20,066 bases of DNA. It comes from a virus. Positions 19,048-20,066 of this stretch are shown here, in pieces. The position numbers and the translations under genes were made by a program. Numbering within the stretch: position 1 is the stretch's first letter; every line of letters begins with the position of its first letter. Under the pieces are notes generated by a model. That model had not been told where the DNA came from. It saw only the letters and a program-made list of their open reading frames with translations, and did not search any database. The stretch covers positions 1 to 20,066 of the IMG/VR virus record IMGVR_UViG_3300026478_000126; one strand, written 5' to 3'.

Positions 19048-19068
19048 ATTGTATAGCAACCTAGACAA
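19048..19068 (-). promoter_or_regulatory. Early leftward promoter -10 box with operator-like palindrome (copy O2)
   Basis: On the - strand TTGTCTAG-GTTG-CTATACAA (19049-19068) is a near-perfect 20-bp palindrome (7 of 8 arm positions). Its right arm merges with the -10 TACAAT (19048-19053). The ATG of the sigma-like gene is 7 nt downstream. The -35 region is weak. A repressor bound here would block the promoter. Confidence 0.6.
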
Positions 19069-19085
19069 CATGAATCAGTAGAAAC

Positions 19086-19118
19086 CCCAACAGCTACCTA
19101 AACAATGTGTAGTAAAAT
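19086..19118 (+). promoter_or_regulatory. Rightward promoter of the cro-like gene with operator-like half-site (copy O3)
   Basis: The - strand of 19086-19105 reads TTGTTTAG-GTAG-CTGTTGGG, agreeing with O1 and O2 in the left arm and the CTGT. On the + strand TAAAAT at 19113-19118 is a likely -10, 6 nt before the ATG at 19125. No good -35 is visible. O3 occupies the -35 zone, so binding could affect this promoter. Confidence 0.5.
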
Positions 19119-19124
19119 AAACAG

Positions 19125-19298
19125 ATGACCAAAGAAGAGGCTGTAAAGAGAGCTGGGAACCAGGCAAACCTGGCCCGGATTCTTGGCATCACCAGGGGTG
19201 CTGTGAACCAGTGGGGCGCTTTCATGCCTTCTGGTCGTCTGTATCAACTGATGGTGCTTAAGCCTGATTGGTTCTTGACAGACGAAAAAAAAGACTGA
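19125..19298 (+). CDS. Cro-like helix-turn-helix repressor (57 aa)
   Basis: The sequence starts MTKEEAVKRAGNQANL and continues 'ARILGITRGAVNQWGAFMPS' with 'GRLYQLMVLKPDW' at the end. Residues 12-31 form the helix-turn-helix, and the whole layout matches short P22 Cro-type repressors (DNA_binding_2). It probably binds the palindromes at 19049, 19086 and 18360 as a dimer, repressing early leftward transcription and itself. No ribosome binding site precedes the ATG and the -10 box is 6 nt away, so the message is probably leaderless. No CI gene is seen beside it. Confidence 0.8.
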   Translation: MTKEEAVKRAGNQANLARILGITRGAVNQWGAFMPSGRLYQLMVLKPDWFLTDEKKD

Positions 19299-19304
19299 TA
19301 GAAT

Positions 19305-19403
19305 GCGCTCGTTGCCGTAGGAAGCGACAAGCAAAGGCCGTTTACTCATGCTCCTGCCCTCGAAAGAGGGTTCCTACCGGGAGCAGTAGTAAGCGGCTTT
19401 TTT
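19305..19403 (+). ncRNA. Compact structured RNA with predicted pseudoknot and intrinsic terminator
   Basis: Hairpin P1: GCTCGTTGC (19307-19315) with GCGACAAGC (19324-19332), one mismatch, 8-nt loop. Hairpin P2: GCCGTTTACT (19337-19346) with AGTAAGCGGC (19388-19397), then TGCTCC with GGAGCA, then CCCTC-GAAA-GAGGG. T6 follows at 19398-19403. The P1 loop GTAGGAA (19317-19323) is perfectly complementary to TTCCTAC (19371-19377) in the internal loop of P2. It starts 6 nt after the cro-like stop. It may be a terminator/attenuator, an antitermination RNA or a stable small RNA. Confidence 0.7.
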
Positions 19404-19660
19404 GTTTCCTCCTAGGCATCCGTACTCCACACGATAGTAAGACTTCAACCTGAGGGCGTGGAAGAAAAGGGTAGCCGGTATGCCGCAAGGCTAGGGGGCA
19501 GTTCCCGAACAATCCGGTGGGCTGGTCGAATCGTCAAGCCTGGGGCATACGGTCTTAATCCGTAGCATGACGATCCCTTCAATGGGGGGTGAACCTAACT
19601 CGTCCTTCCTCACACTCTGTGGGGTAGGGGGGTCTTTGGGTGAAATTATCTTAACTGGAG
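19404..19660 (+). other. Non-coding, hairpin-rich intergenic region
   Basis: No convincing gene is seen. Inverted repeats: TCCAC (19426-19430)/GTGGA (19458-19462); TAGCC (19472-19476)/GGCTA (19489-19493); ATCGTCA (19530-19536)/TGACGAT (19568-19574), enclosing GCaTACGG/CCGTAGC with a 7-nt loop; CCTCACA (19608-19614)/TGTGGGG (19618-19624). A G-rich stretch follows. It may be a larger structured RNA, a leader of the next gene, or a replication-related site. Confidence 0.5.
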
Positions 19661-19667
19661 ATTAATC

Positions 19668-19817
19668 ATGAAAAGAGTTCTAGCATCACTGATGATTGCA
19701 TTGATTACAACAGGCGCATGGGCTGCGTGTTCAACGCATACCTACTACGCTAACGGCAGGACAGTTACTTGCACGACTTGCTGCTACGGATCAAACTGCA
19801 CGACGAACTGCTATTGA
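19668..19817 (+). CDS. Secreted small Cys-rich peptide (49 aa)
   Basis: GGAG lies about 9 nt before ATG 19668. The N-terminus (MKRVLASLMIALITTGAWA) is a clear Sec signal peptide with likely cleavage after AWA (residue 19). The mature part of about 30 residues holds six Cys (21, 35, 38, 39, 44, 48), with 'CTTCCYGSNCTTNCY' at the end, suggesting three disulfides in the periplasm or outside. W-A-A before Cys21 is a poor lipobox. No known family is recalled with certainty. Placed between cro-like and replication genes, it may be an early-expressed envelope or exclusion factor. Confidence 0.75.
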   Translation: MKRVLASLMIALITTGAWAACSTHTYYANGRTVTCTTCCYGSNCTTNCY

Positions 19818-19912
19818 TTTTGTGGACACGGCTAGGGATGGCCTGATCTCCATCCTGAAAAGCGAACCTCCCGCCTGCCGCTGTTCTCTTTCTGGAGGGT
19901 TGGAGAAAAACG

Positions 19913-20066
19913 ATGTTTGAAAGCGGGTTTGACAGATTCTGGGCAGCATGGCCGAAGTCGCCTCGCAAGGGCGCTAAGTCGGCATGTCTAGTGAAGTGGA
20001 AAAAGGGTCTGTATGAGCATTGTGCAGACCAGATCATCAAGCACATTGAGTGGCAAAAAACCACCG
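19913..20066 (+). CDS. Replication protein, 5' part (partial)
   Basis: ATG 19913 has GGAG 9 nt upstream. The 51 visible residues ('FDRFWAAWPKSPRKGAKSAC', then LVKWKKGLYEHCADQIIKHI) show the F-x-x-F-W-x-x-[WY]-P-[KR] start common in phage replication initiators or helicase-loader-type proteins (lambda O/DnaC-like regions). The frame runs off the window end. Position downstream of cro-like fits a replication gene. The preceding 95 nt hold only a short hairpin (GGATGG/CCATCC, 19836-19855). Confidence 0.6.
   Translation, partial: MFESGFDRFWAAWPKSPRKGAKSACLVKWKKGLYEHCADQIIKHIEWQKTT

Follow-up and report, generated by a model that had tools for sequence, protein, structure and literature searches.

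A pseudoknotted, terminator-ended RNA family of uncultivated phages and the second structured RNA that follows it

The put RNAs of phage HK022 are about 70 nt long, consist of two stem-loops and suppress termination; in the portion of the published account drawn on here, put binds the zinc-binding domain of the RNA polymerase beta' subunit and suppresses both pausing and termination in cis (PMC9378689). In the HMP-PP (thiS) riboswitch the terminator can embed the sensor (PMC6478431), and at type III toxin-antitoxin loci a terminator sets the ratio of the RNA to the downstream product (PMC12373285). The RNA described here, which we call type A, resembles each of these in part. As with put, a structured RNA stands at or near the +1 of a phage transcript, in one case just behind cro, but type A is ∼95 nt long, carries a loop-to-internal-loop pseudoknot and ends in its own U tract, and thus differs from put as that part of the account presents it (PMC9378689). 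The HMP-PP riboswitch is likewise compact, with sequence common to an intrinsic terminator and a possible pseudoknot (PMC6478431), but its ON fold disrupts the terminator stem, whereas the type A pseudoknot is compatible with that stem; thiamin synthesis genes follow the riboswitch, and a second RNA follows type A. With type III units (ToxIN, AbiF-like) it shares the order of promoter, knotted RNA, intrinsic terminator and read-through product (PMC12373285), but it has neither repeats nor a ToxN/AbiQ/AbiF-type toxin gene downstream. Two further known RNAs belong to its surroundings: the Betaproteobacteria-1 RNA (RF02932), a second-module RNA found directly behind type A and hence its neighbor rather than type A itself, and the int-alpA RNA (RF02996), which occupies the same phage region (with sub-threshold matches also in several relatives) but has a different structure and lies further downstream.

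The window, by which we mean the whole stretch of DNA analyzed, is an IMG/VR virus record of 20,066 bp, and the features that concern us lie close to its end:

19125-19298, + strand: cro-like gene forming the upstream context (Pfam P22_Cro, 44.3 bits versus a cut-off of 30.2; phrog_409)
19275-19304, + strand: sigma-70-like promoter, TTGACA at 19275-19280, 18-nt spacer, TAGAAT at 19299-19304
19310-19403, + strand: type A pseudoknotted RNA, ∼95 nt, with covariation across 53 divergent homologues and a covariance model, R1
19311-19328, + strand: P1 hairpin, GUUGC (19311-19315) paired with GCGAC (19324-19328), 5 bp, 8-nt loop CGUAGGAA
19317-19323, + strand: 5' strand of the pseudoknot, GUAGGAA, in the P1 loop, 7 pairs with 19371-19377
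19336-19398, + strand: terminator hairpin P2/P3, P2 19336-19346 with 19388-19398 and P3 19349-19355 with 19379-19385
19357-19370, + strand: P4 apical hairpin CCCUC-GAAA-GAGGG, 19357-19361 with 19366-19370, from sequence and fold
19371-19377, + strand: 3' strand of the pseudoknot, UUCCUAC, in the 3' internal loop of the second hairpin, exact reverse complement of 19317-19323
19398-19403, + strand: U6 tract after P2 (a T-run of 4-8 in relatives)
19420-19634, + strand: structured RNA E, 20 divergent homologues, with its own pseudoknot 19530-19536 / 19568-19574

The predicted +1 of type A falls at about 19310-19312 and its 3' end in the U tract; R1 places the RNA at 19310-19403 with a training set that includes an identical copy, L001. 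P2 and P3 are separated by a conserved CA/GY internal loop. The stretch 19309-19403 folds with a minimum free energy of -46.9 kcal/mol (z = -5.65, with 0 of 200 shuffles equally good), and by our own estimate a 7-nt exact complement at a fixed place would arise by chance with a probability of about 1e-4. The sequence is as the first-pass annotation described it, with two hairpins, a GTAGGAA in the loop of P1 complementary to TTCCTAC in the internal loop of the second, and a T6 end. The three stacked helices and the GAAA loop given there also stand, at lengths that the comparative alignment revises from 10, 6 and 5 bp to 11, 7 and 5 bp. Its start at 19305 took in three outer GCU/AGC pairs that precede the predicted +1 and are not consistent in relatives, and only the hairpins themselves are retained.

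Three pattern scans of IMG/VR viral contigs returned at least 119, 31 and at least 120 stretches, which together give at least 162 distinct type A sequences; because two of the scans yield minimum counts, all figures for abundance are lower bounds. The third scan fixed the outer stem only and left P1, the pseudoknot and P4 unconstrained, so that covariation in P1 and the pseudoknot is no artefact of the search, whereas sequence conservation of the outer stem is partly selected. A perfect 7-bp Watson-Crick pseudoknot is present in 58 of 59 homologues clustered at <86% identity among the matches listed. In a MAFFT alignment of 53 divergent sequences from the same matches (alignment A1, where counts of covariation ignore kinship), pairing of the pseudoknot is complete (100%), six of its seven pairs have changed on both sides, and the loop occurs as 25 different 7-mers. 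P1 is paired in 98.9% of cells, with double changes at 3/5 pairs, and P2/P3 in 99.2%, with double changes at 13/18. Only P4 falls behind, at 70.9%, because a variable spacer between it and the pseudoknot strand misaligns it. The whole structure is 95.3% paired in this alignment versus 82.6% in shuffles and 38-52% when slid, and RNAalifold predicts P1, P2 and P3 unaided. R1, which was built without the pseudoknot, also picks up a more distant branch, A', most members of which retain a loop/internal-loop complement of 7-8 nt. A divergent relative at L375 (2687-2794, - strand) has an apparent 10-bp complement of this kind, TGTAACGGCA / TGCCGTTACA.

On this comparative evidence we regard it as close to certain that the type A RNA family is real, and type A, as judged from its sequences, is a discrete, conserved phage RNA family. 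The proposal of the first-pass annotation that this is a pseudoknotted RNA and more than a simple terminator is thus strongly supported by covariation; the absence of compensatory changes or of a retained RNA in related phages, either of which it had named as counting against the idea, is contradicted, since both are found. Apparent duplicates in relatives proved to be one site, so that the RNA is single copy, and TRF found no tandem array at the locus.

The family is abundant in uncultivated phages and is apparently unlisted and absent from Rfam. No covariance model of Rfam 15 had a gathering match in the window, and over 19310-19403, at E-values up to 10, the search, a comparison that the first-pass annotation had suggested, returned only snoRNA, miRNA and IRES models at chance level. 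Searches of INPHARED phages and PLSDB plasmids with blastn found nothing credible in cultured phages or plasmids at that sensitivity, one strict pattern run over GTDB genomes gave, at its sensitivity, a single match in a Calditrichota MAG that lacked type-A downstream sequence, and literature searches did not find a description of type A.

The promoter and the terminator are fixed relative to this structure. In the window the promoter-like site overlaps the end of cro and, with 11 of 12 consensus matches, is the best in 19050-19960. Among the matches listed, 113 upstream sequences are independent, and 76 of these place the end of the -10 box 6-7 nt ahead of the GTTG of P1; after shuffling, no single position accounts for more than a few per cent of the best promoter-like sites. 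At the other end, the stretch immediately after P2 is a run of 4-8 T in each of the at least 162 distinct copies, every one of which therefore has the form of an intrinsic terminator, a G+C-containing stem running directly into a U tract. A simple terminator scan missed the P2 terminator, probably because the tool admits loops of 3-8 nt only. The fixed position of the -10 box and the T4-T8 run in every listed copy argue that type A is a discrete transcription unit and not merely the leader of an early operon.

The genomic setting varies. The first-pass annotation had put the RNA at the beginning of a phage early operon; in the window it does lie behind cro, but this is one of several contexts, and the RNA has a predicted promoter of its own there. 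Other genes nearby in the window encode a divergent small sigma-70-region-4 protein and YqaJ-like and Sak-like recombination functions. Elsewhere, in translations read by eye rather than systematically, type A copies also adjoin terminase, scaffold/capsid, RusA-like and methyltransferase-like genes, and in ∼20% of listed copies with a long ORF nearby the upstream or downstream neighbor is on the opposite strand. No protein neighbor was common to the type A copies in the neighboring translations of relatives among the listed matches.

What does recur is a second RNA. About 20-30 nt past the U tract, a non-coding, structured-looking stretch of ∼200-300 nt starts in nearly all of the cases examined. 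The 177 downstream stretches of listed matches fall into ten blast-linked groups, and by their motifs at least eight types can be told apart. The tests of covariation covered A and E; the other second types are called structured from reading of their sequences, apart from H, which is the known Betaproteobacteria-1 RNA. In E the 7-bp helix 19530-19536 / 19568-19574 is 99.3% paired, with double changes at 4/7 pairs in 20 homologues (kinship ignored), and despite this strong comparative evidence a single-sequence fold of 19400-19660 gave no signal (z = -0.22). Some E relatives, such as that in L326, have a long stem with a tRNA-like insert in place of the short internal hairpin. As a candidate, a separate promoter for the second RNA just past the terminator was rejected; the 60 bases around the U tract contain fewer promoter-like matches than shuffles.

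The coupling was also examined in reverse, from E and F alone, in the 96 copies that have enough upstream sequence. Seventy-one of these follow type A as detected by R1, 14 follow a module N and five a module B, so that 90 of 96 follow type A or another promoter-plus-terminator module. By reading, the six left over comprise one N, one A-like element, one divergent A, two with an A ∼490 nt upstream, and a single true exception, L420, in which F stands without type A or another module. From these sequences the coupling of type A to a second RNA appears near-obligatory, holding in nearly all cases, and is not absolute. The Betaproteobacteria-1 RNA (RF02932) lies directly behind type A at five loci:

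L083, 3442-3558
L089, 1241-1356
L103, 3482-3599
L127, 4468-4583
L280, 8239-8356

In Acidovorax phage AP1 (L476, 2475-2598) the same RNA follows a primase directly, without type A. Its occurrence in a Paracidovorax phage hints, and no more, that part of the family has hosts among the betaproteobacteria.

Further downstream in the window, a 49-aa ORF (19668-19817, + strand) whose start resembles a signal peptide and whose mature part is rich in cysteine lies between E and an int-alpA-like element; PADLOC gave no match for this ORF. The element itself (RF02996, 19825-19899, + strand) scores 31.4 bits against a gathering threshold of 35.8 (E 2e-4), a sub-threshold match, and lies just before a replication-like gene.

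The place of type A can also be taken by other elements. A search with the cro-like protein gave 80 viral contigs, and behind the cro genes of these relatives stands either type A, a candidate that we call B or C, or directly the int-alpA-like RNA, which follows cro in most relatives without type A. Type B is a promoter-borne, terminator-ended element of ∼185 nt that stands behind cro where type A would otherwise be. Type C is a different pseudoknot candidate behind cro, in which TTGGCGG is matched by a CCGCCAA inside a GACTTAG/CTAAGTC-like terminator hairpin ending in T8-T9. Module N, with a GGCTTCGTCAAAGCT core, a promoter in front and a terminator behind, replaces type A before F or E. In the loci scanned, types A, B, C, E, F and G had no Rfam match. 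The loci are as follows:

Type B: L004 at 2172, L012 at 946, L013 at 3191, L037 at 3193, L040 at 2008
Type C: L015 at 1039, L017 at 3169, L026 at 3185, L039 at 3171
Module N: L422, L423, L428, L432, L441, L446, L447, L449, L454

The combination of a promoter, a knotted terminator-ended RNA and a promoterless second RNA suggests a terminator-gated unit with two products, and we propose, with slightly less than even confidence, that type A acts as a terminator-gated leader for the second RNA. Transcription would start from the sigma-70-like promoter at the 5' edge of P1, and most transcripts would end at the U tract to give a ∼95-nt knotted RNA. A fraction would read through the terminator, so that the second RNA, which in the window is E, and the following operon would be transcribed too; this fraction would perhaps be set by folding of the P1-loop pseudoknot or by a bound protein or ligand. 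The 5' strand of the knot leaves the polymerase first, and its partner follows ahead of the 3' arm of P2; in this way the knot could determine the order of folding and, with it, how efficiently transcription terminates. In favor of gating, the large structured RNA begins ∼20-30 nt behind the terminator with no promoter-like excess between the two; type III toxin-antitoxin units (PMC12373285) offer a precedent for the layout with read-through, and the HMP-PP riboswitch (PMC6478431) one for a sensor within a terminator. Against it, the terminator helix can form with the pseudoknot in place; retention of the U tract by every listed copy is what would be expected of a plain, efficient terminator; and second-type RNAs occur without type A in phage AP1 (Betaproteobacteria-1) and L420 (F). 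The second RNA could instead be made from the upstream operon by antiterminated polymerase. Of the two parallels offered by the first-pass annotation, that to an attenuator fits better than that to put because a promoterless second RNA follows the terminator, but inspection of type A found no conserved mutually exclusive antiterminator or alternative fold, in which it differs from classical attenuators and the HMP-PP riboswitch.

The main rival, a real possibility to which we give clearly less weight than to gating, is that the ∼95-nt terminated transcript is itself the functional product, a stand-alone trans-acting sRNA, for example a decoy or scaffold for RNA polymerase or for some protein of the host or phage, the second RNA being a separate neighbor in an island of non-coding RNAs. 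A promoter with its +1 at P1, the RNA's own terminator, the variety of its genomic settings (in roughly 20% of cases a flanking gene runs on the opposite strand), and a P2 sequence that is highly conserved among relatives, with a nearly invariant CA/G internal loop, would all suit such an RNA. This reading does not sit well with the near-obligatory coupling to a promoterless second RNA or with the exchange of type A, at the same place, for the apparently unrelated promoter-plus-terminator modules B and N, and the longest conserved unpaired run in alignment A1, 2 nt, argues against an antisense sRNA that pairs through a seed. An RNA that acts in cis like put, the nascent knot binding the elongating polymerase and carrying it past its own and later terminators, is improbable. 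Type A is at the +1 of its transcript, as is putL, and the window copy is just behind cro, putR being ∼270 nt after the PR start (PMC9378689, in the part used here). The parallel is positional at best, since put suppresses termination and type A is built as a terminator, its second stem abutting a U tract in every listed copy, which is what makes a put-like antiterminator less likely; that part of the account describes put as ∼70 nt with two stem-loops and mentions no terminator or loop pseudoknot (PMC9378689), and our comparison is with this description rather than with the sequence of put.

We consider it more doubtful still that type A is the RNA partner of a type III-like toxin-antitoxin or abortive-infection system. 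The layout of promoter, pseudoknotted RNA and terminator is that of ToxIN-type units (PMC12373285), but type A is present as a single copy rather than as tandem repeats, it is followed by the non-coding RNA E rather than by a toxin gene (the 49-aa ORF being without a PADLOC match), and its protein neighbors vary among relatives with none shared. An ordinary cro-operon terminator or DNA-level hairpin, with the pseudoknot arising by chance, is very improbable; type A does resemble an intrinsic terminator, but a knot that stays fully paired through 25 different 7-mers already contradicts this view, as does a promoter fixed at its 5' edge. Least credible of all is a -1 frameshift stimulator at the A-rich end of cro, where ORF 19268-19453 would extend the protein. 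The cro stop codon is immediately preceded by an A run and followed by a structured RNA, yet the idea is already contradicted, as the slippery run is missing in relatives with the same RNA, many copies are not behind cro, and Pfam finds nothing in that ORF.

Beyond the proposed gating of E by type A, a broader possibility, in which our confidence is well below even, is a phage-specific bipartite cassette, where interchangeable promoter-borne, terminator-ended 5' RNAs (A, A', B and N) gate interchangeable second RNAs (E-I and others). If this were true, phages would possess a regulatory or effector cassette made of RNA alone, lacking any protein partner within it. Type A adds to the RNAs of uncultivated phages an abundant structured family with unusually clear covariation, and shows RNAs of this kind to be arranged as two-part cassettes whose halves can be exchanged; among those halves the Betaproteobacteria-1 RNA is a known orphan. 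Such cassettes may offer a testable entry to the function of orphan phage RNAs through the question of whether the knotted terminator decides synthesis of the second RNA.
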